Assembly: GCA_033030425.1 (NCBI GenBank)
Contig: JAUFSD010000014.1
Span: 806,001-870,000, forward strand
Length of the DNA stretch: 64,000 nt
Source: Verpa conica
Lineage: Eukaryota > Ascomycota > Pezizomycetes > Pezizales > Morchellaceae
Direction: 5' to 3'
The position numbers and the translations under genes were made by a program. Each line of letters opens with the position of its first letter. Positions within the stretch are counted from its first letter, which is position 1. This document shows positions 854 to 63,740 of the stretch, in pieces. The notes below the pieces were generated by a model that worked only from the letters and a program-made list of their open reading frames with translations, searched no databases and was not told the origin of the DNA.

Positions 854-882
854 CAACCCTAGCCCTTTATGTGGATGCCTGA
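854..882 (-). promoter_or_regulatory. Telomere-like promoter box of B1
   Basis: ACAACCCTAGCCC...ATGTGGATGCCTGA on the plus strand lies about 170 bp upstream of the B1 exon 1. It is one substitution away from the canonical box found before the other two-exon copies. Confidence 0.65.
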
Positions 883-1028
883 ATGTTGACTGGGCGGCTC
901 AAACTAGTTGGCAGCTAGCGCCTACCGAAAAGAACTTAAGATATAGAAGGGTTATAGACTTCAGAATCACCTATAAACCTAGTCTCCTGGTGTTGGGAGT
1001 AGAGAATGAAATCGTAGCGCCAGTCACT

Positions 1029-1040
1029 GAGTATCACTCG
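1029..1040 (-). promoter_or_regulatory. Distal promoter box of B1
   Basis: GAGTATCACTCG matches the core of the distal box (plus-strand consensus CATGRKATRTCACTCG). Confidence 0.5.
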
Positions 1041-2306
1041 TTTCATTAATTAGATAATGGTGGGTTTTGATCGTACTTCTCTATAGAAGCAACTATTAGA
1101 CCAACTATACAGGGAGTTTGCTAAATGTGAGCAGATGTAAGATTACTTTTGTACTTGTATTTTGGTTTTGTACTAATGGGTTTGGTATAGGTACTAAGGT
1201 TAAATTCATCCTGTATATGTCTATCACTATATATCACTAGGGACAGATCAATTGAGGGAGAGCGCGGAGAAGGAACGGATGCTTCTGGGAGGTCAACCTC
1301 ACAGATTGATGAAGACCTAGTTTATGAGAAAATTTAGTCTCCCTATAGAAATCCTAAAAATATAATTCTATAATCAAGAAATTAAAAACCGTTTAGAAGA
1401 AATGGGAGTATTTTCTCTATATTTAGCATATGTAATAGTAAATTCCTCGGAGCGTGGAACTGCATAGTTTTATTCCACAGCAAGACCCTTTATGGAAAGG
1501 CTTAGGGGAAGTGGACCCGACTATATACTTATATCAAACCAAACTTCACATCTCTGAGGACTGTACTATAATTTTGGGGTGGGTTTCGTAAACTGCCCCC
1601 CGTTCGTGTAAAGGTGAGGAACTCTTTCTACCATAGTGTCGGTATGGTTCGTTTTCAGGTGCTACTCGAAGGGGCTTTTGAACTTGCTGGCATTTGCGTA
1701 TGGAACTGGTTGTTACTTGGAAGAGTCGGATTGCTATAATTGGCTAGTTTGTTATTGAGCTTTTAAACCAGTGAGGGATTCAAATAGAATAAATAGTTTT
1801 TAGTACCGTGAATGGATTTGGTACCTCACCATTCTCCTTTAAGTAAACCCCACGCTATTTTAGTACTGGTCATGGAATACTGATTACTTGCTTCAATATG
1901 AGACATACAAGTCTCTTTTTCACGGGAGGAGTGGAATTTAGGTTTGTGTTTGCATGATCGGATCCTAGAACCATAACCTAAGGGTTATGGGTAATGGTGT
2001 AAGGAGTAGGGGGCAAAAGCACGACCATGCCACCAGTATAAAATGCACATATCATTCTTCAACGTGGGCTTTATGGCCTATTGTGTTTGGTAAAAAGATC
2101 TCTGAACGTATAATACAAATGTTTGCTAAAAAAATCAATCTGATCTTTGAAACCGCCTAAGAAAAACCAAGGTGAACCAATCGTTTGAGCCCCCAATTAT
2201 CACACTTATTCCCACTGCCAGATATAACCAACTCGTAAAAAGGATTGCCTGATCCCCTCCAATATTGAGAAATACTAAGCTAGGTCAATGTCTTTAACTC
2301 ATCGCT
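1041..2306. other. AT-rich intergenic stretch, nothing recognised
   Basis: Apart from an imperfect palindrome at about 1971-1990 (CCATAACC / GGGTTATGG), no coding, repeat or RNA signal was recognised between the B1 promoter and the 3' end of B2. Confidence 0.4.
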
Positions 2307-3771
2307 TTAGTCTTCATAGATATCATCGAATCTTCGCAACTTAGCCTCCAATAAACGCATACGAGCCTCCATCTCCTTCACCTCCCGCATTCTCGCTTGA
2401 TTGACTGAGGTGAGCCACTGTAAATCCTTTTCGGACTGTTCTAATTTCTCAGTAGCAGTAATGTTTGACTTGCGCAACTCTTCCTCATGAGAAATTTCTA
2501 GTAGGCGTACCCTCTCCACACAAGCAAGGTTTGCCTTCCGTAGCTCCTCCTCGTGAGAGATCCCTAGGAGACGTATTGCCTCCGCGTTTCCGAGCTCTGA
2601 TTTCCGTAGCTCGCTCTCATGGGAAGCTTCTAGCTGGCGAATCTTCTCCGCGCTGGCGAGCTCTGACCTCCGTAAATCCTCTGCATGGGAAATTTCCAAC
2701 CGACGCATCTTCTCCGCATTGGCGAGCTCCGACTGCCGCATCCCTGCATTGCTAGCCTCTGAATTTCGTAGGCTTTTATTGGCGGCCTCTAACTGTTGCA
2801 ACTTTGTCTCTAATTGCTCTGACTTTTGGGCATTGGTTGCCATCGACTGCTGCATCTCCGTGTTGATAGCCTCAAATAGCCGTAGCTTTTCGTATAACGC
2901 GGTAGCTCGGCCCTTCCAGACATGCATATCTTTCTCCATGTCGCAGAGTTTTCTCTCAATAGCACTAGAGTTCCCCGCTTCATAAAGTCGCCTTGCCACC
3001 TTCTGCATCAGCTCAACAAAATCACCCCCTGAACTCAAGCCCAACAAGTGTACCATCTCTCTCTGATCCATCAACTTCTCAAAATTCTCCGCTGCAAAGG
3101 TTGAAACAAGATCTCGCATTGGTTCCTCCGGGCTGGTGTGAGAGAAGACATATCTCAATAATCTGATGAAATTCACCGCCACCTTCGAGGTTCCCTGTAA
3201 CATGTACTCATTCATCTCTTCAAGAGCCGTCCTAAGCCGTCCAAAAGCCATTTCTCGGAGTGCCTCAACACCCTTGTATTGTGCGAGCCCATAAATCTTC
3301 GCATGCACCAGAAGCGCATTCGTGTCCCTCTGACTAGGTACAAACTCTTCATTGTCTGCGAGACTCTGTACTGTATCCGGAGTATTTATCCCATCCTGCC
3401 CTTTCATCTCCTCATCCACTTCATCAGTCTCCTCTTCATCATCGAGGCTCGAATCGGGAAATTGGTAGTTTCCAATATAGAGGAACTGGAGGAAACGTTC
3501 AACTGTATCGCCGTCCCAAGCTGACAAGTCGATTTCCTTCTTAGCGACCCCTCCTCGGTTGCGTGATGGTGTTGATTGTGTGGCGGCAGCGAGAACGCTG
3601 CTGTGGACGAAGAAACGCTTCTGGCCGGACTCGGCAACGATTTCAAGGGTTTCAGAGCTGAGGAGACTGTTGTTATTGTTTCTGTTAGTGAGAACGCGGC
3701 ATCTGAGGAGAGGGGGGGAGGTATTACCCGCAGAACTGAGGAGGCACGGCGTTTAGTGATGGTAGAGCCAT
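2307..3771 (-). CDS. BTB/POZ coiled-coil protein B2
   Basis: The spliced model is 467 residues: exon 1 at 3728-3771, intron 3667-3727, exon 2 at 3666-2307. The usual exon-1 ATG is GTG here (3745-3747), but an in-frame ATG eight codons upstream (3769-3771, MALPSLNA) restores a start. The BTB first half (LLSSETLEIVAESGQKRFFVHS...WDGDTVERFLQFLYIGNY) spans about 15-82, the acidic linker with NTPDTVQS about 90-116, the second BTB helices (LLVHAKIYGLAQYKG) about 132-165, and the BACK-like part about 165-260. From about 270 the protein is a coiled coil of roughly 22-residue repeats (SHEEELRK-x-x-L...). BTB proteins usually dimerise and can act as Cul3 adaptors; that role here is inferred from the domain only. 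Confidence 0.8.
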
Positions 3772-3918
3772 GATCTTTAGGGCAGATGGTAGGGATAGAT
3801 AATAGTTGTACAGTAGTATTTTTCAGGAGAGAAAGAGTAAGAGAGCAAGAGGGCTTCAGATGCTGTCAAGAGAATCCTGGGGTGGGTGGGGAGCTACGAT
3901 GCCTGTTTCCGAACAGCG

Positions 3919-3952
3919 CATACGTAACCCTAACCCTTTGTGTGGATGCCTA
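3919..3952 (-). promoter_or_regulatory. Telomere-like promoter box of B2
   Basis: The plus strand reads CGTAACCCTAACCCTTTG followed by TGTGGATGCCTAA, about 150 bp upstream of the B2 start. This is a near-consensus copy of the family box. Confidence 0.75.
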
Positions 3953-5156
3953 ACGGTACACCCAAGGTGGGGTTTGATTCAATGTGCTTATCTCACAACC
4001 CCAGAAACGGCCAGTCTGGGATATCTTACACAAATCCTGACTTTGAGATACCGGAAAAGAATCTGCCCTTATAAATATTTATTCATTCATGACTGTTTCT
4101 AAAACCTCTACTTGTGGTTTTCATCGTGTTAAATAGCGGGCTCTGTATTAAAAGACCTAGGTGTGTAATCTCTAATATGACGATACTATTTGGGAGATTT
4201 CCTGTTAGTACTGTAAAAATAGGTATACTAGGCAGCAGCAACGAACCAGGTTTCAGATGCATGACGCCACTATTCCCCACAACAGTTTAGCTTACATTAA
4301 AAATCCCATAGTGTTTGCTAAGCAATTTACTGACTTGTATACTTAATTTCACCCTAGAGAACAGTCTCTTTATTGATTCTCTTGGGCGCTTAGTCTAAAA
4401 ATTTATATCTGCTTTAGGGAACTGGCTAGGGCCTCTTTATTCTCCTGGTGTGTAATTGAAAATAATATTGGCCCCTAGCTCTATTCATGCATGAGATATC
4501 ACTCGCTTGAGGATGTTAAATATGACTAGCCTGATTAATTACCCTAAAGGTACGCCTACCCTAATATGCCGAGCCTCTGATACACTCTAGAAAGTATTTG
4601 GTCTAGTAATTAATATAATATTACTGCGACGTACTAGCTCGTTTACAGCCTATTAGTTATTAGGAAGGTCGAAATTTGCCAAGACCACGATTAGTTTCTA
4701 CGCTAGCTGCGTATATGCGAGTACCTGTTCTCTCAAATAAAATGCCCCTACAAGTGTTTCCGCCCGAATAAGAACTTTTAAACACCATAAGTACGTCCTC
4801 CTGGATTTAAACGGAAAGTTCCTCAATAACAATTTATGTGTATATATGGTCATAAGCGCGTATTTTAAAGAATATTCCATAACCGATGGGGTGTTACGCA
4901 ACAATCGCAACCTCAATGGCGGCATGTAAGATTACGCGCTGGTGGCAGTACTGCATGAGTGCCTAATTATCAAGAGTGCTCTTTCTGTACTTGTAAACTC
5001 TTAGAAGTTGCTAACTTAAATACCACCTAAAGGTTGAGATAAACTTTATATAGATCCTATGAGATGAAAGAAATTTGGTTCTTGGCTAGAATACAATAGA
5101 ATACTACTGGGCGTCTTCACTATGCTACCCTTAAAATACGTAATGCCTCCTCCATA
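3953..5156. other. Intergenic stretch containing the B2 distal box
   Basis: A copy of the distal box lies at 4491-4505. Otherwise it is AT-rich DNA without a credible gene; a 75-residue minus-strand frame at 4698-4925 has no family resemblance. Confidence 0.35.
4491..4505 (-). promoter_or_regulatory. Distal promoter box of B2
   Basis: ATGAGATATCACTCG matches the distal box, about 720 bp upstream of the B2 start. Confidence 0.5.
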
Positions 5157-5348
5157 TTATTTCCATAGATTATCCCATGTAGATCCTAGCACCCGTATCT
5201 CTGCTGGATTTCTATCAGCCATTTTCTGCACATTTGCCGCGTTGGTAGACTCCAACATTGGCACCTGTTTCGCGTTGTCGGGATTCAAATCTCGTAGCTT
5301 CTCCGCGTTAGTAGTCTTTAACTCTAGTAGCCTGCTAACACTAGTAGT
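5157..5348 (-). pseudogene. Read-through tail of B3 beyond the premature stop
   Basis: In the B3 frame this segment encodes coiled-coil-like residues (LLELKTTNAEKLRDLN, MLESTNAANVQKMADRN) and ends in TAA. It was probably the original C-terminus. Confidence 0.6.
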
Positions 5349-6291: not shown

Positions 6292-6399
6292 TGTTCTTGA
6301 AGTGAATGGTAAGAATTTCCTATATTCGAGAAAGAGGTAGAAGGTTTGGGTGTAATAAGTCTCTTCTGCGCGGGGGGTTGAGATCATAAGCTATCTGAG

Positions 6400-6431
6400 A
6401 TAACCCTAAGCCCTTATTTTAGCTGCCTGAA
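6400..6431 (-). promoter_or_regulatory. Telomere-like promoter box of B3
   Basis: ATAACCCTAAGCCC...GCTGCCTGA lies about 110 bp upstream of the B3 start. A GTGTTACACAAGG element that recurs upstream of other copies follows at 6445-6456. Confidence 0.65.
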
Positions 6432-6587
6432 TGTTGCCTGATTGTGTTACACAAGGCAAGCTGCATGGCGAGCGGCGTAGGTGATGGATAGCGCCAATCA
6501 AATGTTTTATGATGCTAAAATTACGTTTAGAAACCGTCACCAGCATTTGGGACTTGTTTTATCGATATCGGTATTTTGGTATTGGTC

Positions 6588-12308: not shown

Positions 12309-12340
12309 ATATAACCCTAACCCTCTGATGGAATGCCTGA
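12309..12340 (-). promoter_or_regulatory. Telomere-like promoter box of B6
   Basis: ATAACCCTAACCCTCTG then ATGGAATGCCTGA lies about 95 bp upstream of the B6 start. No distal box was found before B6. Confidence 0.7.
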
Positions 12341-13724: not shown

Positions 13725-13752
13725 TAACCCTAGCCCTTACTTAGACACCTGA
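13725..13752 (-). promoter_or_regulatory. Telomere-like promoter box of B7
   Basis: GTAACCCTAGCCCTTAC followed by ACACCTGA lies about 85 bp upstream of the B7 start. It is a slightly diverged copy. Confidence 0.6.
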
Positions 13753-15440: not shown

Positions 15441-16858
15441 TCATAAAAAGTGCCTGAAGGACAGCCCCGCAAGAGTTATCTGCTGGGGACTGCCAGAGCG
15501 AGGGGCCGATCTACTCATCATGACCTCCCGCTCCTTCGCCTTCCCTGGGTAAGTATTCTTCAACCACTGCCAGTCAGCCTCGTATTTCTTAACCTTAGTT
15601 TCTAATGTCCACATCTCTTGGTTGGCAACTTCTAACTGTAACACTTTCTTTTCATTTGCAGCCTCCAATCGTTCTATACTCTCACCCAATGTAGCGGCCC
15701 GACCCTTCAAGCCCTGTATCTCACTCTTCATATCGCAGATCGTCCCCCCCGCCCCGCAAAGCTCTCCACAATCACAGGGCCTCCCTGTACGATAAAGCCT
15801 CCTTGCTACTTTTCCCATCAGCTCGACTGGAAGATCACCCCCTGCACTCAATAGTACCCCCATCTGGTCCCAATCCGCCAACGTTTCAAAGTTCTTTGCC
15901 GCAAAAGTTGATACAAGGTCACGTATCGGATCCTTCGGGATTTTATGAGAGTAAACGTACTCCAGAAGCTCGATAACTTCTACTACAACCCTCGGGTTTC
16001 CGGCCATTATAGGTCCATCGATCACCTCGAGTGCTTCTCTAAGCCTCTTGAATGCCATCGCCCGAAGTATTTCAACTTCCTTGTACTGTGCAAGAGTATA
16101 CAACTTCGCATGTAACATCAGCACATCCGTGCCGTTCATTCCCGACTTCCCTTCATCCGTGAGGCTCTGAACAGTATCTGGTGTATTCGCTCCAGCTTTT
16201 ACACCATCTTCATCTTCAGATTCAACTTTATCATCTTTGAAGTCTAGTTCGGGAAACCGGTGTTGGAATGAGTGACACTCTGTGAAGTTAAGTGTGGCGA
16301 ATACGGGGTGTGGCAACACCGGAGGAATAGAATCCCGGGTGGTCCGGTAGGGTAACCAAGCGGGGGAATAGTATAACCGACGGAAGGAAATTCTATCCGA
16401 GAATCGGAAGAATTGTATGGTGACGGATTGGCTTTTACTTTGTATTGGGATTACGGAATGTTTTCTATGTTAGCGGATTTGTAACTATATAAGCAGGCTT
16501 CTCCTGCGTCTTTTCTTTCGGTATCAATCAAGTTTGTTCTTTAGTTATATCTGTCTTCAGTATACACTCAGTCTATTGTTTTTTAACCGGTAGTTGCCGA
16601 TATATATGAACTCGGCGAACCGCCCAACTATATCGCCTTCCCAATCAGAAAGATCGACCTCTTTTGGAGAGGACTCTTTTAGCTCTTTGTAGAGAAGCTC
16701 TGATTGTTTGGCGAGAATATCGCTGTGTACAAGAAAACGCCTTTGGCCAGATTCGGCTACGATCTCGATAGTTCCTGAGGATAGGAAGCTGTCTTTGTTA
16801 GTGGGAATGTGCCCTAGAGTGACATGGAGTGGAAATACCTGAAGAAATCAGGAGGCAC
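15441..16858 (-). pseudogene. BTB/POZ coiled-coil gene B8, interrupted by an LTR-like insertion
   Basis: Exon 1 (16839-16858) starts with GTG instead of ATG and no in-frame upstream ATG was found. The intron is 16789-16838. Exon 2 encodes the BTB first half (FLSSGTIEIVAESGQRRFLVHSD...FAEFIYIGNYRF) until 16591, where a 325-bp insertion introduces a stop. Coding resumes at 16260 in the same frame (PELDFKDDKVE), with NTPDTVQS, MLHAKLYTLAQYKEVEIL, a BACK-like region, a cysteine-containing patch (CDCGELCGAGGTIC), coiled coil, and a WLKNTYPGKAKE stretch. Without the insertion and one duplication copy the length would be a multiple of three (345 residues). Loss of both start and continuity indicates a dead copy. 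Confidence 0.85.
16261..16585. mobile_element. Solo-LTR-like insertion in B8
   Basis: The 325-bp sequence begins TGTTGGAATG, a start common in Copia-type LTRs. It is flanked by ACCGG at 16256-16260 and 16586-16590, which is single-copy in the restored gene (YRFPEL). A TATAAG-like box occurs about two thirds along. The right end (TTGTTTTTTA) is not a clean CA, so the assignment to an LTR is likely but not certain. Precise removal restores the host reading frame. Confidence 0.7.
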
Positions 16859-17005
16859 ACTATTCTGGGACGATGGTAGGGACATGGTCTTTGGGCTGAT
16901 AGTAGTATAGGTAGTTGGTATGTTATGGGCCCTTTTGGATAGAATAGAAGAGAATTTAGAACCTTATCTACTATATGATGTGTTGTGTGCCTAGACAAGC
17001 GATAA

Positions 17006-17044
17006 ATAACCCTAACCCTAACACCGGCGCCTAAGATGGATGCC
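17006..17044 (-). promoter_or_regulatory. Telomere-like promoter box of B8
   Basis: AATAACCCTAACCCTAAC carries a longer run of the repeat than other copies and is followed by GATGGATGCCTT. It lies about 150 bp upstream of the B8 exon 1. Confidence 0.65.
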
Positions 17045-17478
17045 TTGATATTGTGAGGGGTTTCCAGCTCAGCCTACTACTGAATGGGGCTCTAGGGAGG
17101 CTAATGCGCCCCAGAAGACCAAAGTTCATATCCTAGGTTCTATCGAGCTTGCGAATAAAATAATTTCTAGACTGTCTGGGTGAATATAGAAGTACTACAG
17201 AATATAAGTATCCTCCATTTTATTATGTAGAAACAATTGATATCCTATTTCTTTTGTAATATATTAAATCAAAACTAGGCGTTAATTATTAGGGGCTAGG
17301 GGTATCGCGGCATCAGTTACTTCCAGGTTATACAACGTTGCCCAGTTCACATGGATTATCTATCGATTAACTTTATATGCCGTAGACAAAAGGCTTCACT
17401 TATGAGGAGGAATCAACGAATCAATCTCCATGTACTTAATTTATTTATTCATTCAACGAATCAATCTACCCTAGTGAT

Positions 17479-19923: not shown

Positions 19924-19959
19924 ACATACATAACCCTAACCCTTTATGTGGTTGCCTGG
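19924..19959 (-). promoter_or_regulatory. Telomere-like promoter box of B9
   Basis: CATACATAACCCTAACCC then TTTATGTGGTTGCCTGG, about 120-150 bp upstream of the B9 start. Confidence 0.72.
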
Positions 19960-22485: not shown

Positions 22486-22520
22486 TGCATAGGTAACCCT
22501 AACCCTTTATTTGAGTACAT
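22486..22520 (-). promoter_or_regulatory. Telomere-like promoter box of B10
   Basis: GCATAGGTAACCCTAACCC then TTTATTTGAG, about 110 bp upstream of the B10 start. The GGATGCCTG half has diverged, and no distal box was found. Confidence 0.62.
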
Positions 22521-23128: not shown

Positions 23129-24025
23129 CTACATAGTGATTTCTAGCTGCTGCATCTTATCTTCTAATTTCTTTATTTTCTCCGCGTTGATAGCCATTAA
23201 ACTTCGCCGCTTCCCTATGTGTATAGGCCCCTCCAGATCACCAAGCTCCCCCGAACTAAATCTTCCTGCTACCTTCTTCATTAGCTCGATTGCGAGGTCA
23301 CCTCCTTTACCTAGTAATAATTCCATATCTCCTTCACTAATCAGTCTTTCAACGTTCCTTGCCGCAAAGGTTGATACAAGTTCCCGGATGGGTTCCTTTG
23401 AGGTAGTGTGGGAGTATATATACTCCAGCAGCTCCACCACATCTATCTCTGCCCCTGAGCCCTCCTTCAAAGTGCACTTATCAATCATCAGAAGTGCGAC
23501 CCTGAGGCGCTGAAGCGCCATTCTCCGGAGTGCTACAACATCTTTATACTGTGCGAGCACATATAACTTCGCATGTGCCATCAACACATTCGCATGCGTA
23601 CTTTCAGACTCATCCTCTCGCGTACCTTCCCCATCTTGACTCCCAGCCTCCTCTTTCTCCTGCTCCCCCTCGTTTACTTCCGCTTCGCTTTCTTCGTATA
23701 AGGTCGATTTAGGGACTTTGTAGCTTCCGACATAGAGGAACTGGAGGAACCGTCCTACTGTGTCGCTATCCCAATCAGAGAGATCAATCTTTTTTTCATG
23801 GGCTTCTTTCCATGGGCCTGTTGTCGCAACACGGAGGGGTTCTGAGTGTGCAGCGAGAGTGTCGCTGTGCACAAAAAAGCGCTTTTGCCTGGAATCGGCT
23901 ACAATCTCGATTATTTCCGAGGAGAGAAGGTTGTGGTTATTGATGAGGCTGCAGTTATTAGCGGGGCTGGTCTATTTAGTAAGATAGGTTGAGAGTAGTA
24001 CATACCAGGAGAAAGTGGTAGGCAT
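23129..24025 (-). CDS. BTB/POZ protein B11, short C-terminus
   Basis: Exon 1 is 24006-24025 (MPTTFSC), intron 23949-24005, exon 2 23948-23129, giving 279 residues. The BTB first half (LLSSEIIEIVADSRQKRFFVHSDTLAAHSEPLR...WDSDTVGRFLQFLYVGSYK) is complete. The linker is strongly acidic (EESEAEVNEGEQEKEEAGSQ) and lacks the TPDTVQS motif. Second helices VLMAHAKLYVLAQYKDVVAL and BACK-like VVELLEYIYSHT and RELVSTFAARNVERLIS follow. The protein ends after only a brief coiled coil (MAINAEKIKKLEDKMQQLEITM), so it is among the shortest copies. Confidence 0.82.
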
Positions 24026-24146: not shown

Positions 24147-24182
24147 CGTATATACCCTAACCCTCTGGTTATGGGCGCCTGG
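24147..24182 (-). promoter_or_regulatory. Telomere-like promoter box of B11
   Basis: GTATATACCCTAACCCTCTG then GGGCGCCTGG, about 120 bp upstream. A GTTACACAAGG element shared with other copies follows at 24211-24221. Confidence 0.62.
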
Positions 24183-25936: not shown

Positions 25937-25967
25937 ATGGATACCCTAACCCTCTAGGGGCACCTAA
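25937..25967 (-). promoter_or_regulatory. Telomere-like promoter box of B12
   Basis: GGATACCCTAACCCTCTAGG then GGCACCTAAA, about 95 bp upstream of B12. A related GTTACATAA element lies at about 25980. Confidence 0.6.
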
Positions 25968-28450: not shown

Positions 28451-28489
28451 AACACATAAATCAATTCAACCCTAACCCTACACGTGGCC
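28451..28489 (-). promoter_or_regulatory. Telomere-like promoter box of B13
   Basis: CAACCCTAACCCTACACGTGG, about 110 bp upstream of B13. The distal box follows within 15 bp, the tightest spacing in the window. Confidence 0.65.
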
Positions 28490-31587: not shown

Positions 31588-31620
31588 TGTATAACCCTAA
31601 CCTTTTGTATGGATGCCTGA
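31588..31620 (-). promoter_or_regulatory. Telomere-like promoter box of B14
   Basis: GTATAACCCTAACCTTTTG then TATGGATGCCTGA, about 125 bp upstream. A GTGTTACACAAAG element follows at 31664-31675. Confidence 0.72.
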
Positions 31621-34142: not shown

Positions 34143-34171
34143 GATAACCCTAGCCCTGGATGGATGCCTGA
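34143..34171 (-). promoter_or_regulatory. Telomere-like promoter box of B15
   Basis: GATAACCCTAGCCCTGG then ATGGATGCCTGAGG, about 100 bp upstream. One substitution in the repeat (AGCCC), and a GTGTTACAAAG-like element follows. Confidence 0.62.
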
Positions 34172-36526: not shown

Positions 36527-36560
36527 ACGCATACATAACCCTAACCCCTTGTGTGGGTAG
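36527..36560 (-). promoter_or_regulatory. Telomere-like promoter box of B16
   Basis: GCATACATAACCCTAACCCC then TTGTGTGGGTAG, about 120 bp upstream of B16. Confidence 0.68.
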
Positions 36561-38126: not shown

Positions 38127-38154
38127 GGACCCTAACCCTATATGCGGCTGCCTG
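38127..38154 (-). promoter_or_regulatory. Telomere-like promoter box of B17
   Basis: GGACCCTAACCCTATATGC then GGCTGCCTGAG, about 110 bp upstream of B17. Confidence 0.62.
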
Positions 38155-39661: not shown

Positions 39662-40918
39662 TGTGACGACTTTACCATCGTCATGACTAGTCTCAAGTAC
39701 CTCTCCGCATAAAGACACCTAAGGATCTCCCTTGAGGCATAGGACTAGCTATCCCATTCCGGTCAATAGATACTAAGGAAAGTCATTACTATGATAGCCC
39801 GATCCCTAAGCGAGCTGGCGAGCCCCTAGGACGGAGCGAAGCTCACCGTCGTCGGTATGCGACAGAGACCAGAGTAATGCGTCTGTAGCTTATAGCTACG
39901 GAAGATACTAGCGCAATGAGACTGAAGCAGTTACCTCCATGAACAGAGTTAAGCTCCTGTTCCTCTAGGAGGAATAATAACAGCTTCGCTGATGGCCAAT
40001 CTTATGGGAGGCCGAGAGCCATGAAACAAGAGCAAAGCTATGCTTAGTAGTTAGGGCCGCCAGCAAAAATAGTAATTAACCTGGCGGCGTCACGAATCGA
40101 ACCATACGGGGCTATGCCTTGTGCGTCGCCCTAAGGTCCTTATGGATCAAGATTACCTCTCCGCCACGCTCCCAGGTTGGACTAAGAACGTGGGAAAGGA
40201 ATCTAAGCAACGGCAGGAATCACCAGTGGGTTACCCTACCTAGGGGACTCTGTGTTTCCTAACACCCCCGAGGCGCCCCACTGTGCCACCCGCCGTTTGC
40301 AGAGGGGGCCCCCCTGAGTTGCTGATTCCCTAACAAAAAGACAAGTTTTGGACCCCAAAAATAACCCCAAAACCGTCAGGAAAATTCGTCCAACCAAACC
40401 GAACTCGGAGGGTATATGGGGGACAGTGCTGCGAATCCATAGGTGCAATCGGATTTGAAATCGGACCATTTTAGCAATAGTTACAGAGTTTTTAGTAACC
40501 AACGCTTTTTAGTCGCTAGTCTATCGACCCCGCTAGTTCTTAGGGGCGCTCTAGACTCAGTTGATTTCCAAGCGCGGAGGAATTGTTCCCCCGCTCCTTG
40601 GCAGCCTGCTCGCTTTCAAAATCATAGCTTAAACCCGTCCTTCCCCCAGGACAATCATAATTGCTAGTCAACGAACAACCGTTGTTCAGAGACCCTCATA
40701 CTCTTTGCTAAAGACGTTTGTCTTCCCCTGGGAAGCAGAGCCTTTTAAAGTCTTTAGTTATCTATCCATTAAATCCTTATTCCTGTTTGCCTAGGGACTG
40801 TCGACCTTCCGTGTTGACGAGCGGTTCTAAGCCTCGCTGCTGAAGCTTCTCGTCAGAAAGGAAGGTTGTTGGTTTTTTTTTGGTACGGCAGTACTCCCCT
40901 GGGAGTGCCCCCGTTACA
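39662..40918. mobile_element. Solo LTR 1 inside LINE ORF1
   Basis: A 1257-bp sequence starts TGTGACGA and ends CCGTTACA (TG...CA ends), flanked by ATCAC at 39657-39661 and 40919-40923. It is nearly identical to the copy at 44639-45896. No internal retrotransposon domain lies next to it, so it is a solo LTR, probably Ty3/Gypsy-type from its ends and duplication length. Confidence 0.9.
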
Positions 40919-40923
40919 ATCAC

Positions 40924-41419
40924 TCCTCTCGACACCCGCTTCCTCACTGCCGATGACACCGCCCGAAATGCCCAAAAGTTCTCAACTGTTGTCATCACTG
41001 TTACAGCTGAAGAAGCAGCCATTATTGGCACCACCATCAGACTTTTTTCACGCCCCCGCCACTGCTCCGTCATGTGGTCAGCCTCCAAAGCCACTCTCTG
41101 CCGCAACTGCTACAAATTCGGCCACCCAACCAAAAGGTGTAAACAAAAAGAGCCCACCTGCCCCATCTGCTCCCTAGGTCACTCTAGGGACAAACACCAG
41201 TGCGCCGTTACCACGTGCCCTGGCCACGTCCGCCCAAAACCCAACTGCTGTGTCGCCACTCCCTCCAAGTGCGTCAACTGTGGGGGTAACCACACGGCAA
41301 ATTTCTCGAAATGCCCCTACCGCATTTCCATCATCAACAAGCTCAGAGGTGGACCTACCCAGGAGGCCCAACCCTCTTCAGATGCCACTGAGGAAGTGGC
41401 GATGAACGACACCATTTAA
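40924..41419 (+). pseudogene. LINE ORF1, 3' part with three CCHC zinc knuckles
   Basis: Coding resumes directly after the LTR duplication (PLDTRFLTADDTARNAQKF). It contains CRNCYKFGHPTKRC (C-x2-C-x4-H-x4-C), CPICSLGHSRDKHQC and CVNCGGNHTANFSKC, the nucleic-acid-binding knuckles of LINE gag-like proteins. The stop (41417-41419) is one base before the ORF2 ATG (TAAAATG), a layout suited to termination-reinitiation. Confidence 0.88.
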
Positions 41420-41420
41420 A

Positions 41421-44400
41421 ATGTTTAGTACGATCACTAAACATTCTTCTTCTTTTAACATCATCCAACACAACTGCGCCGGGAGCAACAATGTGTTTCT
41501 TTCTCTATTCTCAAATCCAGTAGTTCACTCGTCACAGGTCATAGCTGTGCAAGAACCCCCGCTATTTAATCGCTCTCCTTTAGTCGCACCCAACTTCGCT
41601 CTCTTTAAACCCACACCCACACTTCAGTCAGATAAGGTGTCAGTGTGCTTTTATGTTAACCTTTCCTTTTTGGATAAGAATTCCGTTACCCAGACCCCCT
41701 CGCACCGAGGAGACATTGCTTTTATTACATTGCATTTTACAACTTCAAATCATACTTTTTTTTCCTTAACACTCGTCAATGTTTATAACAGACAGGTGTT
41801 CGATTCTGTTAGATCTGTCCCTCCCTACATGGCCTTTCCGGCCTCGTCTGTCCCTACCGTTGTTGTTGGTGACTTCAATGTTCACTCTCCTGCCGCGGAT
41901 CCCTTACGAAAGTTCTCCACAACAGAACTAAATCTTTCCACTCCCTATTTTAGGTTAGCCAACCAACTTGGCTTTTCACTTATTAACACACCTGGGAAAT
42001 ACACCAGAATCTCTCCCGACCCGAGAAAGCGACATAGCGTTATCGACTTTACCTGGGCTAATCATTCCGCAACTCAATTAATTCAAAAATGGCTGATCCC
42101 ACCAGTTCCCTCAGGCTCAGATCACAGGGTCATACTCTGTCAGCGGGCCCCTCCGGACTCTGATTTCACTCCCTACAACACCCCCAATTGGTCTCTCGCT
42201 AACTGGGACCTCATCGCTCCCCAGCTGAGCGAGTTTCAGCTTCCTCCTGACTCCCCCAACCTAGATAACTGGTTCGACGAGTCTTTTAATCAACTTCACA
42301 ACATTCTTCTTTTACACACTCCCACAAAGAAAGTTTCATCATGGTCAAAACCCTGGTGGAACCCTAATCTTTCCCAACTAAGGTCTATTTACCACAGCGT
42401 TCACAAGTCCTACCGCAAAGGACTTTCCCCCCCATTCAAGCTTAAAGCGGCCAAAAACGCCTACTTTAACGCTATCAAGAAGGCCAAACGTGACCATTGG
42501 AACACGTTTGTGTCCAACGCCTCCCCTTCCGATACGTGGCGGCTTAAGAAAATGGCCACCAGATCCGAGGACCGAATCCCGTCCATTCCCAATTCCCCTA
42601 CACCCCAAATCCTAAATGAAAATTTAGTGAATGCATTCTTTCCTCCGAGACCAGATACTGGCTCCCCCCTTCCCCTACGGCATCATAATGTTCCCATTAT
42701 TACACCTGAAGAAATTCAGCTCGTTCTTTCCAAAACATCCAACCTATCGGCACCAGGACCCGACTCCATTCCCTACTCAGTATGGAAAGGTGTCCATAGG
42801 ATTAACCCCACACTCATTCCTAGAATTCTTACTCCTCTTTTAAAAAGCGGTTACCACCCACTTTCCTTAAAAAAGGCAAATGGTGTAGTCCTAGCCAAGC
42901 CAGGCAAAGACGACTACACAGCCACTTCCTCCTATCGGATAATTGTGCTTCTCCAAACCTTTTCAAAAGTCTTGGAAAAAGTCGTCACCCTTAGACTGGC
43001 AAAGATAGCGAAGGCCACCGGCCTAGTCCATCCACACCAGTGCGGCTCTGTCGCAGGCCTTTCCACCTCAGACGCCACCACTGTCTTTTACAACGAAATC
43101 AGAGCTATGCAACTAGCTAAACTGAAAGTCTCCACTCTTTTTTTAGACATTAAAGGCGGCTTTGACAATGTGGTTAAACACACCCTAGCCTCCATTCTTA
43201 CTTCCCAAAGCGTTCCCTCCTATATGGTTAACTGGATCCTTTCCTTTTTATCCGATCGCTGGGTCACCTTGCTTTATAAAGGCTCCCCCAAGCTAGCTGT
43301 TCCCGTTCAAGTTGGGGTCCCCCAAGGATCCCCCATCTCTCCTTTATTATTTGTTATTTACGTTAGCGTTTTACATCACCTGGAACCATCACCAGGCATT
43401 ACCCTATCATACGTTGATGATTTTGCCATCACGGTTGCCTCCCCCACAGTGGAGGAAAACATTCTTTTACTTCAAGAAAATTACTATCGCCTTAAAAACG
43501 ATGCAGCTCCCCGCAACGTGTCCTTCTCAGTCGCTAAAACTGAGCTGATGCACTGGCGCACCCCCAGAGACAAGTCTCCAGTTTCACATCTTTCCGTGTG
43601 TATTGATGGACACACCTTCCATCCAAAACCAATAGTCCGGTGGGTCGGCTACTGGTTTTCACCCTCATTCAACCCAAACGATCATTTTATAAGAAGGCTG
43701 GCGTCCGCCCAGGCTTCCTTTGGCATTCTTCATAGGTTTTCCTCTCCCGGGAAAGGTCTTTCCTCAAGTAATTGCAGGAAACTAGCTACCCTCGCTATTC
43801 GCCCCATGCTCACTTATGGAGCCACTCTTTTTACCCCCACCTCAGCCCTAAAAGAAATGGAGGTCTTTTGGAACTCCGTTCTCAGGTGGGCCCTAGGTTG
43901 CTTTAGATCAACCAATCTACACGCTCTATGGGCGGAGGCATCCGCCCCCCCGTTGATACTTTACCTTCAATATCTCAAGATCAAACACGCCATCCGAGTT
44001 GCTACGGCCCACCCCCTTAACAATCCAGTCACGGCCCGGTTTGACTCTTCGTTCCCAACCATCTCACCTGAACGGAGCTACTCACACTTCGAACTTCTCA
44101 AAGGCCTCCCTAATCCTCCCAAAAAGTGGAATTCGGTCGCCAAAGCAGGCGTGAACCACCTGCCAATCGAATTTTTAGGTTCCCTTATTCAACCATTACT
44201 AGGCTCTAACCTTAGCCATAAAAATTTTTCAATACTTATCAAACAACAGCTCCTAAAGAATTGGGAGATTCTTTACCCCCCACCCAGTTACTACAAATAC
44301 GGTTGTTCTCTTACAACACCATATTTCATGTCTCTTCACAAGTTTCAATCTTCCCGTCTCCACCAAATGCGGGTGGAAAAGAGCTACTTAAACGCCCACA

Positions 44401-44638
44401 AGTCGTGGATAAACCTTCACACATCTGACACCTGTCCCAAGTGTTTTCTTTTTCCCGAAACAACAGAGCACGTGCTCCTGCACTGCCCCAGTCTCATCAC
44501 GTCCAGAAATTCTCTTCTGCCCAATATTAGGTCCCTTGACGAAATTTGGAGCTCCGAATCTCTTTCGCTACTCGTCGGGACCTTTGTCGTTCAAAATAAG
44601 ATAAATTTTCCCAAAAAAGCACTTCTGTCACCGGTGCC
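41421..44638 (+). pseudogene. LINE ORF2: APE endonuclease and reverse transcriptase
   Basis: A frame of over 1070 codons is open and reads into the second LTR, stopping at 44651. The endonuclease part (about 1-230) has NIIQHNCAG, QEPP, VNVYN, VVVGDFNVHS, SVIDFTWAN and the GSDHRVI catalytic end. The reverse transcriptase (about 430-730) has GPDSIPYSVWKG, VSTLFLDIKGGFDNV, GVPQGSPISPLLF and the catalytic box as YVDDFA. A CCHC motif (CPKCFLFPETTEHVLLHC) lies near the end, and no RNase H is visible. Without LTR 2 the frame would run on to a stop at 45951-45953 (1089 residues), so the LTR replaces the last residues. Clade assignment (Tad1-like versus other fungal APE LINEs) needs a phylogeny. Confidence 0.92.
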
Positions 44639-45896
44639 TGTGACGATTTAACCATAGTCATGACTAGTCTCAAGTACCTCTCCATATAGAGACACCTAAG
44701 GATCTCCCTTGAGGGATAGGACTAGCTATCCTATTCCGGTCAATAGATACTAAGGAAAGCCATTACTATGATAGCCCGATCCCCAAGCGAGCTGGCGAGC
44801 CCCTAGGACGGAGTGAATCTCACCGTCGTCGGTATGCGACAGAGACCAGAGTAATGCGTCTGTAGCGTATAGCTACGGGAGATACTAGTGCAATGAGACT
44901 GAAGCAGTTGCCTCCATGAACAGAGTTAAGCTCCTGTTCCTCTAGGAGGAATAACAACGGCTTCGCTGATGGCCAACCTTATGGGAGGCCGAGAGCCGTG
45001 AGATGAGAGCAAAGCTATGCTTAGTAGTTAGGGCCGCCAGCAAAAGTAATAATTAACCTGGCGGCGTCACGAATCGAACCATACGGGGCTATGCCTTGTG
45101 CTTCGCCCTAAGGTCCTTATGGATCAAGATTACCTCTCCGCCAGCGTCACGGGGTTGGACTAGGAACGTGGGAAAGGAATCTAAGCAACGGCAGGAATCA
45201 CCAGTGGGTTACCCTACCTAGGGGACTCTGTGTTTTCTAACACCCTCGAGGCGCCCCACTGTGCCACCCGCCGTTTGCAGAGGGGGCCCCTCTGAGTTGC
45301 TGATTCCCTAACAAAAAGACAAGTTTTGGACCCCAAAAATAACCCCAAAACCGTCAGGAAAATTCGTCCAACCAAACCGAACTCGGAGGGTATATGGGGG
45401 ACAGTGCTGCGAATCCATAGGTGCAATCGGATTTGAAATCGGACCATTTTAGCAATAGTTACAGAGCTTTTAGTAACCAACGCTTTTTAGTCGCTAGTCT
45501 ATCGACCCCGCTAGTTCTTAGGGGCGCTCTAGACTCAGTTGATTTCCAAGCGCGGAGGAATTGTTCCCCCGCTTCTTGGCAGCTTGCTCGCAATCAAAAT
45601 CATAGCTTAAACCCGTCCTTCCCCCAGGACAATCATTCTTGCTAGTCAACGAACAACCGTTGTTCAGAGACCCTCATACTCTTTGCTAAAGACGTTTGTC
45701 TTCCCCTGGGAAGCAGAGCCTTTTAAAGTCTTTAGTTATCTATCCATTAAATCCTTATTCCTGTTTTGCCTAGGGACTGTCGACCTTCCGTGTTGACGAG
45801 CGGTTCTAAGCCTCGCTGCTGAAGCTTCTCGTCTGAAAGGGAGGTTGTTGGTTTTATTTGGTACGGCAGTACTCCCCTGGGAGTGCCCCCGTTACA
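44639..45896. mobile_element. Solo LTR 2 inside LINE ORF2 end
   Basis: A 1258-bp copy of LTR 1 with the same TGTGACGA...CCGTTACA ends, flanked by a different duplication, GTGCC (44634-44638 and 45897-45901). Different duplications prove independent insertions rather than two LTRs of one element. Confidence 0.92.
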
Positions 45897-47605: not shown

Positions 47606-47630
47606 TCTAACCCTAACCGATTGCGGGGCT
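47606..47630 (-). promoter_or_regulatory. Telomere-like promoter box of B18
   Basis: TTCTAACCCTAACCGATTGCG on the plus strand, about 170 bp upstream; TTGCCTGA follows after about 20 bp, further than in other copies. Confidence 0.55.
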
Positions 47631-50942: not shown

Positions 50943-50973
50943 GCGTACATAACCCTAACCCTGTACTCTTAAT
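50943..50973 (-). promoter_or_regulatory. Telomere-like promoter box of B19
   Basis: GCGTACATAACCCTAACCC on the plus strand about 180 bp upstream. The GGATGCCTG half is replaced by unrelated sequence. Confidence 0.62.
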
Positions 50974-53560: not shown

Positions 53561-53739
53561 GAAGTAACAAATCGGGTGAGGGAATAACACCCATGGTGGA
53601 CAGCTCCGTAGATTACCTAGACATAACCCTCACCCGGAAGATTGAAGTAGAAAGGAACGTACAGCTCAAAGAAATTAAAATTAGAATCAACCATCCTCTC
53701 TTGGTACTTAGTAGGACTTCAGCTTACCATCCTCCGTAG

Positions 53740-57677: not shown

Positions 57678-58034
57678 TTATATTTTAACACCAAACAACA
57701 AATACGAGATAAAAGACGCAAGTAAATAGACAATACCGAGAACGAGTCCTGCAACACCGCAAATAACTGTTATAACAAAGTGAATAGTTGTATAGATAAA
57801 GTGCAATAATCCTATGAGAAAGTAGGGAACACCTGTAGAAATGGAAAATATAGGAGGAGAGCGGTCGGTCGGGGTGTTAGTGGGCTTCACGATACTAGAA
57901 GTCGTGCTCGTGGATCTCAATGTAATAGAAGACTTTGTACCAGCTGACTTTGTAGTAGTACTACGGGCCTTAGAACTGATAATTTTTGTAACTCTAGATG
58001 GGGTTTTTCTAGTAGGCTTCTTCCAGTTATCCAT
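57678..58034 (-). CDS. Small two-TM protein, unrecognised
   Basis: A frame of 118 residues has a basic, Ser/Thr/Lys-rich N-terminus (about 1-60: KKPTRKTPSRVTKII, TTTKSAGTKSS) and two hydrophobic helices (about 70-88, GVPYFLIGLLHFIYTTIHF; about 90-115, VICGVAGLVLGIVYLLASF). It lies between B21 and B22, about 90 bp downstream of the B22 stop on the same strand. There is no BTB similarity, signal peptide or small first exon. The clear separation of a charged head from a hairpin of two membrane helices argues that it is coding, but no homologue is recalled and expression is unknown. It could also be a chance frame or an unannotated alternative 3' exon of B22. Confidence 0.45.
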   Translation of the reverse strand: MDNWKKPTRKTPSRVTKIISSKARSTTTKSAGTKSSITLRSTSTTSSIVKPTNTPTDRSPPIFSISTGVPYFLIGLLHFIYTTIHFVITVICGVAGLVLGIVYLLASFISYLLFGVKI

Positions 58035-58123
58035 ACTCTGACAATACTAAACAAGGAACCTGATGTTAGCACTCTAAACCCAAAACCCCCCCGCATAGTA
58101 AAAATAAACAGGCTCTATACATT

Positions 58124-59649: not shown

Positions 59650-59788
59650 GGTTTTAGCGTCGAACGCGGGAAGATAGTATAATAATTACTCTTCTCAAAT
59701 CCAGGAAATGGAATAGACAGTGACATGGGGGCACCTGGAGGCTGTGAGGTCGATGCTTTTTCTTAGATAGTAGAGCTTGGAGAGCTCA

Positions 59789-59820
59789 AATGTAACCCTA
59801 ACCCTTTGTATGGATGCCTA
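59789..59820 (-). promoter_or_regulatory. Telomere-like promoter box of B22
   Basis: TGTAACCCTAACCCTTTG then TATGGATGCCTAAATG, about 140 bp upstream, followed at once by TTGCACAAAG as in B14. Confidence 0.72.
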
Positions 59821-59830
59821 AATGTTGCAC

Positions 59831-60649
59831 AAAGTCTGAGACTCGGGTCCACCACCCCTTGCCCTGGCATCTTCATGTACTATGTACTATTGTTATTCAC
59901 AAAACTCTAGCACCAGTGAACTAACCTATGTAGCCTAAAATTCTATAGATACACTTTAAGTTTTAGTGATACCTAAAATTAATATCTAGCTATCGGGATA
60001 TGGCAAATGCGGGGACAACTGGGTGCCGACATGACTCACCTATTTCATCAGGATAAAATGCTGAAGCCAGTAGCTTCTTGTATTTTCCAGTCCAGAAACT
60101 ATTTTCTCTATACAGAAAATACCAGAACCTTCTAAATGTAGAGGAGATTAAGGCCTATAATCCAACTAGAGTCTTCGATCTAGTAGTTGGGACTAGGTTG
60201 ATATCAGAGTTATATACCTAGTAATTTTACTCTCTTTGGAGCATGAAACTCATCCTGGGTGTTACGGCTCTTTATTCGACCTTGGTATACTGTATGTGTC
60301 TTTGCAATTTATTTTACAGCGCAAAGTTGTATTCCTATAGGTTACTTTTTTGAGTGAAGGCCTCTCCCCAAATAGATCGAGAACCGAGGATATGCACTGC
60401 TGAGTACAAGTGTGTCAATCTACAGATTCATATTACGTTTGTTGTGTTGAAGTAATAATCGAGTGATAATTTATGAATAGGAACCCCCTCTGTTATAAAA
60501 TACCCTCTATTCTTCTTCTTGACACCTCGGCAATACAATCAGTACATCATAAGACCCCCGGCCAAGATTCTTATAGCCTACATCCTCTCAAAATATCAGA
60601 ACATTGTACGCATTAAGCCGGGGCATGATGACAATATTACACACTTGTT
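59831..60649. other. Intergenic stretch, nothing recognised
   Basis: AT-rich DNA without a recognised feature, ending at the small spliced gene. Confidence 0.35.
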
Positions 60650-61046
60650 TCAAATTGCGTTTTGATCGACCGAGAACGTATTATCAGGAAGAACTTTGAT
60701 AATTTCTCCCATCTTCTTTTCAGTCATATTCAGCAACTTACTGACCGCATACTCGCTGCTGTTGTCGGAGCTGGCTTGAAAAAAGACTTGGTTGTTGATT
60801 ACATCGCCTGGTGGTGCTGTCAAGAGGGAGTATCCTTTAGGCAAGATAAGGGCGTGCCAAGTATTGCTAACATAGGTCCCATGGGGGTACCCGGCAGGGC
60901 TGAAGAAAGTAACTAGCTCCACCTCATACCCGCTCAGGACTCGACAGTTTGCTAGTAGATAGTGAGAAACTAGAATCATCTGGATTGGGCGGGGTAGACC
61001 TACCTAAAGCCTGCTCACGGCGCTGAGCATCCATGGGATTAGACAT
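60650..61046 (-). CDS. Small spliced protein, unrecognised, at the strand switch
   Basis: Exon 1 is 61004-61046 (MSNPMDAQRREQAL), intron 60952-61003 (52 bp, GTAGGT...CTACTAG), exon 2 60951-60650, giving 114 residues in a continuous frame. The exon-2 frame is open from the acceptor and includes FFSPAGYPHGTYVSNTWHALIL, PPGDVINNQVFF and KKMGEIIKVLPDNTFSVDQN. It has no BTB similarity, no signal peptide and no obvious membrane helix. Intron length and splice signals match those of the array genes. The splicing model is inferred from frame joining only. It lies between the divergent B22 and B23, and is one of only two non-BTB, non-transposon candidates in the window. Confidence 0.5.
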
Positions 61047-61246
61047 GTTTGCGGACTTCCTTCTATGGTATGTTGAATACTATGGCTCGGGGTGGTAGTA
61101 GCTGCTTCTAGCTCTCACTATGCTAGATACTCAAAGAGTTTGAAGGAGATAATATGAGTATAGTAGTCTGAATAATGGTAGGTATTTTTTGTAAGGCTGG
61201 GACTGCGCGCTGGGGTGTTGGAGCATATATCTACTAACACATCATT

Positions 61247-61284
61247 CAGGCATCCATATAAAGGGTTAGGGTTATTGTGCGTTG
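61247..61284 (+). promoter_or_regulatory. Telomere-like promoter box, plus orientation, distal copy before B23
   Basis: CAGGCATCCATATAAAGGG then TTAGGGTTATTGTGCGTTG: the box is in the reverse orientation to all those at its left, as expected for a plus-strand gene. At about 470 bp from the B23 start it is farther than usual; a second copy lies closer. Confidence 0.7.
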
Positions 61285-61603
61285 TTTACATAGATAGGCC
61301 TTGCACTATCAACTCTCCGGATAGTGTCTCGTGCGGTGAGACACCCTTTGAGCCTATTTATGCTGCAGCACGGCGAGTGCGATAGTATGATTGGACCTGT
61401 ATCAACAGGGCTAGGGTTTGCGCCTGCGTTTATCCCGTTTCGTTTCGTTTATTATACTTGGACTGAGTTGGCCCTATTCATCCATTCGCCCACCCTTTTG
61501 GAATATGTTCAAAATAGAACTTTTCTACATGGCTGCATGTATCTACCCACTAGAAATTACAATCTATAGGTAACTTGTATATATACATTAGGACTTGTAT
61601 CGA

Positions 61604-61637
61604 ACAAAGGGTTAGGGCTGTGTGTAACCTATGCGCT
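61604..61637 (+). promoter_or_regulatory. Telomere-like promoter box of B23, proximal copy
   Basis: CAAAGGGTTAGGGCTGTGTG then TAACCTATGCGCTG, about 115-150 bp upstream of the B23 start, within the usual distance. A weak distal-box match (CGAGTGCGATAGTATG) lies at 61374-61389. Confidence 0.6.
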
Positions 61638-61751
61638 GTCGCGTTTAGCCAGACCTCGAGCCCCTCAACCGAACGAAGCGCTTCTCATCTACGTACCACA
61701 GCTCCAAGTAATCAATTCTGTCATATATTCCCACAATCCCTGCTAGGAGCC

Positions 61752-63114
61752 ATGTCTCCCCAGTATTCCGAGTACTTCCCCTTCCACTTCCCTTCCCAAA
61801 TGCTACAATCTCGCTAACAACCATAGTTCTCGCTCCTCAAAAATCATCGAGATCGTTGCCCAGTCTGGCGATAAAAGCTACTTTGTCCACAGAAAAGTCC
61901 TTCTAGCACAATCAGAACAAATCCGCCGTACAATTACCACCCAAGAGAAAATTGAGTTGTTAGATTGGGATGGCAACACTGTAGGGCGGTTCGTGGAGTT
62001 TTTGTATGAGGGGGGTTATCATGTCTTTACAATATCGGAGGGGCCGGATGGCGAGAACATACCGGAGCGGGAGGGCATAATGATGCCTGATAAAGCACAG
62101 GGCTTAGCGGATCAGGAAGATGTGGGAATTGGGTATGAGAATGTGCTACTGGCTCATGCGAAGGTGTATGCACTGGCACAGTGTAAGGGCGTCGAAGGGC
62201 TGAAGAAAGTAGCAATGAGACGGCTTAGGATAGTGCTTGAAGAAGTTGGGTGGCGTATGCTCTGGGGGTATCCCAAGGGAGTGGTTGATGTCATTGAGTT
62301 GTTGGGGTATGTCCATTGTCACACACTCGCAAAATCGGAGGAGCCAATACGGGAGCTTGTGTCAACGTTTGCATCGGAGAATCTTGAGAGACTTATGGGT
62401 CAGAAGGAGATGGAGCTGCTGTTGGCTAAAGAGGGGGGTCTTGCAATCGAATTGATGGAGGGGGTTGCTACAAGGCTCTGTACTGCAGGGAGGAAGGCTC
62501 TGTATTTTGAGAGGGAAGTAAAGAGCTGGAAGAAAAAGGTCTCCAAGTCTGATAAAAAATTGCGGCAAGCAGACGTTGAAAATGAGGAGAAGTTGCGGAA
62601 ATCAGAGGCTATCAGTACTGAAAGGCTGAACAAGGTTTTGGAACTGGAAGGAAAAATCGCGGATATGAAGCGGTCGCTTAAGGATGGAGGATCAATAAAA
62701 CTCCCTCTTCAAAGTCCGGCCTACAAGGGGACATATGTCCGTACAACATTTCCCCCGCGTATGCTCTTTTATATCGCCGCGGCCTCAGTTATTATCATCG
62801 TTGCTACCCTGTTCATTCAAAACGCCCCCCAAACCGCCGATAGAGAGCTCTTCCGAGGGCTCTGTCAGTACTACAAAGCACATTCACCGGCTGGGAATAC
62901 TATTATCGATACGCTCGGAGGGAAACTTTTGAAGGAAAAATGCCGTCAATCTACACCGGGTTTACACCTCGCGGGCTTACTTAATAACAGTCAACAAGGT
63001 ATATGCCAGTTTTTTGAAGCACGTGGGTGGGCTGGGACAGATATTATAGACACTAGTATTGTTGGTGGGTCTCTTAGGAGGAGTTGTCAAGACCTAGGTT
63101 ATACAAGCTTCTAG
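61752..63114 (+). CDS. Membrane BTB/POZ protein B23 (plus strand) with two two-cysteine modules
   Basis: Exon 1 is 61752-61771 (MSPQYS), intron 61772-61826 (55 bp, CTAACAACCATAG end), exon 2 61827-63114, giving 435 residues. BTB first half: SSKIIEIVAQSGDKSYFVHRKVLLAQSEQIRR...WDGNTVGRFVEFLYEGGYH. Linker MMPDKAQG. Second helices VLLAHAKVYALAQCKGVEGL. BACK-like VIELLGYVHCHT and RELVSTFASENLERLMG. Coiled coil about 215-285, then a transmembrane helix (MLFYIAAASVIIIVATLFI, about 315-335). Modules: LCQYYKAHSPAGNT...LLKEKC, where Pro replaces the usual Trp, and ICQFFEARGWAGTD...LRRSC. It is the first copy on the plus strand. Confidence 0.88.
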
Positions 63115-63719
63115 TATTAGTAAACATACCAGCTACTGGTCCTCAAAAACCTCCGCCCTCGTTTGTTTATTTAATGTTTTATGGTGGCTTTTTATACAAT
63201 TCTTATCCCAGTACAAGGCTACTATCATCATTTCCTTTCCTACCTGGATGCCTGTTTTACCTGAGTTTTAAGTTCTATTATGACTAGAGTTTTCACATCA
63301 GATGAGAAGCTAGTTATATCTACTTAAGCGTTCGGTAATTTATTTATGCTATCACTTTTTGAAATAGCCTTACTTTTAGGTCCCCTACACCAGTAGTACA
63401 AATTTATTAGGATAAATTATGGCCATATATAGCTAAGCTAGAAATCAGGTATCACAGCTAATCTTACATACTATTGGCTACATAGAATACAGCGCCCATT
63501 AGTTGAGATCCACCAGCTTGTGTAGGTACATAATATTGTCGTATATGTACTTTCCGGACTACAACACTAAATACATATCTGGGTTCATGATTCTACCAGG
63601 GCAATGTGCATCTTTCAAAAATGGATAGCTAGGCCACCACCACTCTTGACGGCGGGTGAGGTTATAATTTTTTTAAACAAGCTTACTCGGTACCTGCAAT
63701 ATCCAGGCGCCCAGAAAAT
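63115..63719. other. AT-rich intergenic stretch, nothing recognised
   Basis: No coding or repeat signal was recognised between B23 and the B24 promoter box. Confidence 0.35.
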
Positions 63720-63740
63720 AGAGGGCTAGGGCTATCAGCT
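63720..63740 (+). promoter_or_regulatory. Telomere-like promoter box of B24
   Basis: AGAGGGCTAGGGCTATCAG on the plus strand, about 130-150 bp upstream of B24. Two G-to-C type differences make it a weak but correctly placed and oriented copy. Confidence 0.5.

Follow-up and report, generated by a model that had tools for sequence, protein, structure and literature searches.

What is a telomere-repeat-like word doing in front of gene after gene in a tandem BTB-family array of Verpa conica? The question is raised by a stretch of 64,000 nucleotides (C14:806001-870000, contig JAUFSD010000014.1), referred to here as the window, from a genome of 45.8 Mb in 25 contigs. Using the open frames and a genome homology search, we identified 24 copies of the family in the window, the last of which overruns its edge. 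Read by eye, 20 copies appear to have a tiny exon 1 (ATGCCTCC-like, about 17-65 nt), a short intron, an AG acceptor and the main exon, and the four others (i04, i05, i20 and i21) are intronless, with a start inside the main exon. Upstream of 20/20 two-exon copies, the 12-bp word GGGTTAGGGTTA, hereafter the telobox, was detected in gene sense with a match of at least 10/12. On balance we consider it to be a functional promoter-proximal site, most likely for the Tbf1-type protein of this genome, which would open and insulate the promoters of the array.

The telobox consists of two head-to-tail GGGTTA sites (AGGGTTAGGGTTA) and lies between 94 and 198 bp before the exon-1 ATG of the two-exon copies, with B23 having three (-489, -344 and -143). 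It follows the strand of the gene, being on the minus strand in 18 copies and on the plus strand in B23 and B24. Within the stretch from -220 to -80, it was found in sense in 20/20 and in antisense in 1/20 of the two-exon copies, while it turned up in 60 of 14,197 stretches of 140 bp drawn at random away from starts. Scanning the window with up to 1 mismatch gave 17 telobox sites, including 9 exact ones (mean in shuffles 0.43, maximum 3). A 9-mer search without any preset word ranked GGGTTAGGG first (up to 1 mismatch, 20/20 upstreams), compared with only 8-9/20 upstreams for the top word in 5 shuffles. The initial annotation had placed the box before every two-exon copy, turning with the gene in B23 and B24, and both statements were borne out; its range of 80-180 bp before the start has to be replaced by the measured 94-198 bp. 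The box had also been called absent from all four intronless copies, which holds for i04, i05 and i21, with no sense telobox at 10/12 or better upstream, but not for i20, at which GGGTGAGGGTTA (11/12; 53624..53635, minus strand) was identified in sense 210 bp before the ATG. The uniform orientation is not independent evidence of function, since tandem duplication alone predicts it.

When the upstreams were anchored on the box, the mean pairwise identity was 0.855 over 13 bp, against 0.24-0.30 in non-overlapping ungapped 13-bp flanks, and in a gapped alignment the box reached 0.89 where the median was 0.36. Six positions of the 12-mer (2 and 5-9) are invariant in 20/20 copies, TAGGG is present in 20/20, and the information content reaches 1.6-1.85 bits at the six invariant positions, whereas the flanks have a mean of 0.11 and a maximum of 0.42. 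The array promoters are largely randomised, save for the box and its near neighbours. The copies are paralogues, homologous to one another in the genome homology search, and they are old, as their four-fold codon sites are 41% identical among 18 copies, with 26% expected at saturation; their proteins are 42% identical. With the box conserved amid flanks of chance identity and diverged four-fold sites, selection and not mere copying is indicated, and purifying selection on the box would be the simplest explanation of its conservation.

The telobox is exact (12/12) on the minus strand of B02 (3925..3936, -165), B06 (12312..12323, -108), B08 (17007..17018, -133, lengthened to GTGTTAGGGTTAGGGTTA), B09 (19931..19942, -136), B10 (22494..22505, -126), B16 (36536..36547, -140), B19 (50950..50961, -198) and B22 (59793..59804, -155). 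A match of 11/12, on the same strand, was found at B03 (6401..6412, GGCTTAGGGTTA, -121), B07 (13725..13736, -94) and B15 (34145..34156, -113), which both read GGGCTAGGGTTA, B13 (28467..28478, GGGTTAGGGTTG, -136), B14 (31592..31603, AGGTTAGGGTTA, -138) and B18 (47608..47619, CGGTTAGGGTTA, -137), and one of 10/12 at B01 (854..865, GGGCTAGGGTTG, -153 from the ATG at 712), B11 (24152..24163, -138) and B12 (25941..25952, -108), which share GGGTTAGGGTAT, and B17 (38127..38138, GGGTTAGGGTCC, -120). On the plus strand, B23 has its distal box at 61263..61274 (12/12, -489, with CAGGCATCC at 61247), its middle box at 61408..61419 (GGGCTAGGGTTT, 10/12, -344) and its proximal box at 61609..61620 (GGGTTAGGGCTG, 10/12, -143), and B24 has its box at 63723..63734 (GGGCTAGGGCTA, 10/12, -145 from the ATG at 63868). 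The gene of B08 (15444-17046) looks disrupted, as its BTB exon enters unrelated stop-bearing sequence before the similarity resumes; its telobox is intact despite this, at nearly three units.

Six of the 9 array proteins that were scanned scored above the Pfam cut-off for BTB (PF00651), while 3 had no match. A representative two-exon gene is B11 (23132..24025, minus strand), with its exon-1 ATG at 24025, a main-exon open frame at 23132-23971 and a PF00651 score of 34.7 bits. The intronless copies seem to have another type of promoter (upstream of 7872, 10509, 53425 and 57266), and CTTCCCCGCACC-like words were read by eye near their starts. Between B17 and B18, a non-long-terminal-repeat retrotransposon with endonuclease and reverse transcriptase domains was found at 40844-44648, and a 978-bp portion of it matches a copy on C2 (L076) at 89% identity.

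Does the box have a partner? The initial annotation had described it as two-part; its GGGTTAGGGTTA part stands in 20/20, but the 'CAGGCATCC' half, ascribed to every copy, is recognisable in 12/20. A word resembling AGGCATCC, matching it at 6/8 positions or more and no farther than 3 bp from the expected offset, was detected in 12/20 copies, and exactly at offset -14, counted from the A of the box, in 8/20. Its mean match at this offset was 4.2/8, compared with 2.0 over all offsets (standard deviation 0.53); the means of 3.8 and 4.15 at offsets 0 and 6 are due to the likeness of the box itself to the word, and 0 copies reached 6/8 there. By count, with the box masked, AGGCATCC is weak (AGGCAGCCA in 12/20, CAGGCATCC in 10/20, with an AT-rich word reaching 11). 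Exact CAGGCATCC adjoins the box at four places (873, 31611, 34162 and, at the distal box of B23, 61247), and a third word, TATGCGTTGTT, matches at 8/11 or better at +15 in 6/20 copies. The composite AGGCATCC-N7-RGGYTAGGGTT has 5 exact matches in the genome, 5/5 inside the array; with up to 1 mismatch 7/9 are in the array, and with up to 2 mismatches 8/20 (reversed control 1).

Other words were also noticed around the boxes. With up to 3 mismatches allowed, another motif of the array, CGAGTGATATCCCATGA, was located at 7 window places against 0.14 expected (4489, 6586, 13880, 17478, 20240, 28498 and 31772, all on the minus strand), and all seven are 20-553 bp upstream of the telobox in gene sense (B02, B03, B07, B08, B09, B13 and B14). 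A CTTTGTGTAACAC-like word is present upstream of two-exon copies and of the intronless i20 (6444, 24209, 31663, 53552 and 59822), and these sites make up 5 of the 7 matches that the window has at 2 mismatches or fewer, where 1.55 were expected. Genome-wide, CTTTGTGTAACAC with up to 1 mismatch was not enriched (54 vs 63 for the reversed word).

Outside the array the telobox is widespread. Genome-wide, GGGTTAGGGTTA has 416 exact copies compared with 24 for the reversed control, while the repeat shifted by three bases has 106 compared with 28 (two of the six phases were counted); as one phase is favoured, a protein site is indicated rather than a fragment of telomere. The 9 exact teloboxes of the window, against 0.58 expected, represent an approximately 15-fold higher density, for which the Poisson figure of 1e-8 is descriptive only, the window having been chosen for its boxes; on C1-C4 the maximum was 6 exact sites per 64-kb stretch. 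Among 28 exact sites sampled at 26 loci of C1 and C2, both orientations with respect to the closest downstream frame are represented, and 26 of the 28 are of two units, with L078 having three. A Pfam search of 78 open frames neighbouring genome-wide sites gave 13 families with one member each. Two of the sampled loci, L060 and L065 (C1:949556 and C1:3428928), are a 2.8-kb repeat, 97% identical between both, that carries an exact telobox.

A box specific to BTB genes was rejected, with 416 copies in the genome and none upstream of the dispersed relatives read. Four dispersed relatives (C4:42 kb, C4:136 kb, C6:68 kb and C17:278 kb, about 1.1-1.5 kb each) had no upstream box with up to 1 mismatch; the upstream reading was confined to these four, leaving aside the relatives at C4:45 kb, on C13 and C24 and the three on C19. 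At the C6:68 kb relative, an 11/12 antisense site is present about 400 bp beyond the frame. Among 8 BTB loci outside the window, on the contigs for which the box listing is complete (C1-C4, and C5 to 1.76 Mb), two of which are also among the four relatives, 0/8 had an exact box within 1 kb upstream when positions were compared by eye, and one of them (C2:2410175) had an exact box about 860 bp downstream. Near the start of C7, a BTB gene (L049, C7:47 kb) is preceded, about 1.1 kb before its frame, by an exact antisense telobox. The initial annotation had named an equal frequency away from BTB genes as a refuting condition; on that count the word proved to be widespread outside BTB genes and yet about 15-fold denser in the window, and it is best regarded as a generalist site that is heavily used by the array.

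Which protein could read it? The sole hit of the TRF domain (PF08558) in the genome is at C19:953500 (254 bits), and the open frame next to it has a Myb region with the motif VQLKDKARNLK. This region is identical at 53/77 positions to telomeric DNA-binding factor trf1 (8ynu_A, E 1.7e-28), which we take to be the S. pombe protein, and also matches Protein TBF1 (8x6d_B, E 6.3e-24). On these matches the genome encodes a Tbf1-like protein, with the TRF and Myb frames probably forming one spliced gene. Tbf1 is described in the literature as a protein that binds TTAGGG and takes part in transcription, in keeping nucleosomes away and in insulation (PMC2834713, PMC3642058, PMC9272169, PMC6410037, PMC7952879); that of S. 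cerevisiae binds clustered TTAGGG with no rule of orientation or spacing (PMC2834713), keeps nucleosomes off and holds down cryptic transcripts from promoters (PMC3642058), and acts as an insulator at STAR elements (PMC9272169, PMC6410037).

By analogy, a Tbf1-type (TRF-domain plus telobox-Myb) protein would bind the two head-to-tail GGGTTA sites; each two-exon array gene keeps one such telobox about 95-200 bp before its ATG. The bound factor may hold the promoter nucleosome-free and help its activation, as S. cerevisiae Tbf1 does, and may insulate each gene from transcription, cryptic or read-through, that comes from the gene next to it. In that case one general regulatory factor would govern the whole array, with its copies being co-expressed.

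Several points weigh against such a reading. The score of the Myb region, 19.8 bits, does not reach the Pfam Myb cut-off of 24.4 bits, the joining of this region to the TRF frame is a prediction, and the orthology is taken from best matches and not from a tree. According to one review, telomeric DNA in Neurospora is served by the TBF1 homologue where it is single-stranded and by the TAZ1 homologue where it is double-stranded (PMC10246852); this would argue against a promoter-reading role of Tbf1 in fungi of this kind. A term search of the main text of an Aspergillus chromatin-footprint paper found neither 'Tbf1' nor 'AGGGTT' (PMC8419926). Yeast Tbf1 has no orientation rule, whereas 20/20 boxes are in sense here, which tandem descent can explain. 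Of 20 sites sampled outside the array, 7 fall outside open frames and at most 500 bp 5' of one, compared with 18.7% of random places (P = 0.06), so the promoter link there is only suggestive, and 4/20 are inside open frames. Three of nine histone-fold loci (C4:578732, C4:1453030 and C5:315720) were checked and had no exact GGGTTAGGGTTA within 1 kb, and neither had, for the ribosomal regulon, the one of three KOW genes that was checked (C3:2889922), which is too few to conclude from; at the loci checked, the classical regulons are not reproduced.

How does the box compare with known systems? With the Tbf1 promoter and STAR sites of S. cerevisiae it shares numerous TTAGGG-type sites across the genome, a related protein of the TRF plus telobox-Myb kind and, for the sampled genome sites, mixed orientation; it differs in its head-to-tail double sites, 20/20 in sense, in its use by a tandem BTB family, and in that binding here is predicted. 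The Tbf1 element of C. albicans ribosomal-protein genes, TTAGGG-N6-CCCTAA, resembles it in the half site and in having a related protein (PMC2834713). That element is a palindrome, whereas the array box is a direct repeat, and a genome search for the exact palindrome gave 0 copies (reversed control 4). The AACCCT box of S. pombe presumably has a two-unit form. This histone promoter box is similar in having TTAGGG within a composite element and a Myb protein that is needed by a partner (PMC5128866). It differs from the present case in that the three histone-fold loci checked here, of nine, have no exact box within 1 kb, and in the partner half, which here is AGGCATCC. Plant telo-box promoters have a short telomere-like word near transcript starts; they belong to another clade and are bound by other proteins. 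In yeasts, Tbf1 is a generalist that has been rewired between regulons. Among the titles listed in a search of the open literature, neither a fungal BTB array with a telobox nor a Tbf1 promoter motif in filamentous fungi was found, and we regard the box as a version of the Tbf1-type promoter sites already described, placed in a context that is new for them.

Could the box have been inherited with the tandem duplications while having no function? The gene copies are paralogues in one array, their common orientation is what duplication alone would give, and another short motif, CGAGTGATATCCCATGA, is common to a subset at its 7 places. Neutral descent, however, would not spare 13 bp alone, with the flanks at 0.24-0.30, the four-fold sites at 0.41 and the box at 0.86 with six invariant positions, and the word is over-represented genome-wide. 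Neutral hitchhiking was rejected on this conservation footprint, and we consider functionless inheritance very improbable. It is scarcely credible, too, that the box is an interstitial telomere remnant left by telomerase or repair: its letters do equal two TTAGGG units, with almost three in B08 and three in L078, but the phase found here is four times commoner than the other one counted and 26 of the 28 sampled sites have just two units, and the phase preference led us to disfavour this origin. No (TTAGGG)5 run was found in the genome, which missing chromosome ends or the handling of simple repeats by the search may explain and which does not establish the telomere repeat of the species. The same absence and phase preference, together with the position of the array in mid-contig (806-870 kb on a contig of 1.53 Mb), leave the coupling to telomere state that the initial annotation had proposed unsupported. 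Its interpretation is upheld in part: a telobox-like cis element common to the array and under selection has good support, and the genome has a Tbf1-like gene.

An element acting as RNA, at which the sense GGGUUAGGGUUA strand in the 5' untranslated region would affect translation or stability, would explain the fixed orientation in 20/20 copies. The sampled genome sites, however, stand in both orientations to the nearest downstream frame, as is expected of a double-strand site, and the two G-tracts of the box are too few for an intramolecular G-quadruplex; we find an RNA role improbable. A transcription factor site of another kind, read by a candidate Tay1/Teb1-type Myb protein with a partner on the AGGCATCC half, deserves more weight, even if we hold it to be rather doubtful. 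In S. pombe the AACCCT box holds a TTAGGG motif that is bound by Teb1 and on which Ams2 binding depends (PMC5128866), and in the array the AGGCATCC-like word stands at its offset, or close to it, in the copies counted above, with the composite being array-rich at all three mismatch levels. Against it, 12/20 of the composite matches with up to 2 mismatches are elsewhere in the genome, and the three histone-fold loci, for which the box listing is complete, have no exact box within 1 kb.

If the telobox is a Tbf1-type promoter site, as we favour, the array may further be partitioned by Tbf1-type insulators, with each telobox being an internal STAR-like element that keeps its gene open and shielded from its neighbours, an idea that we put forward tentatively and believe less likely to be right than wrong. 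Were it true, the telobox would let an amplified family that is repeat-rich and prone to silencing stay expressed, and the loss of the box in three intronless copies would mark a shift to other regulation. The double telobox is a word over-represented genome-wide and, at the same time, the strongest conserved promoter feature of a deeply diverged tandem family. The array offers 20 naturally occurring variants of a putative Tbf1-type site, and with it the question of how tandem families remain expressed and insulated becomes directly testable.

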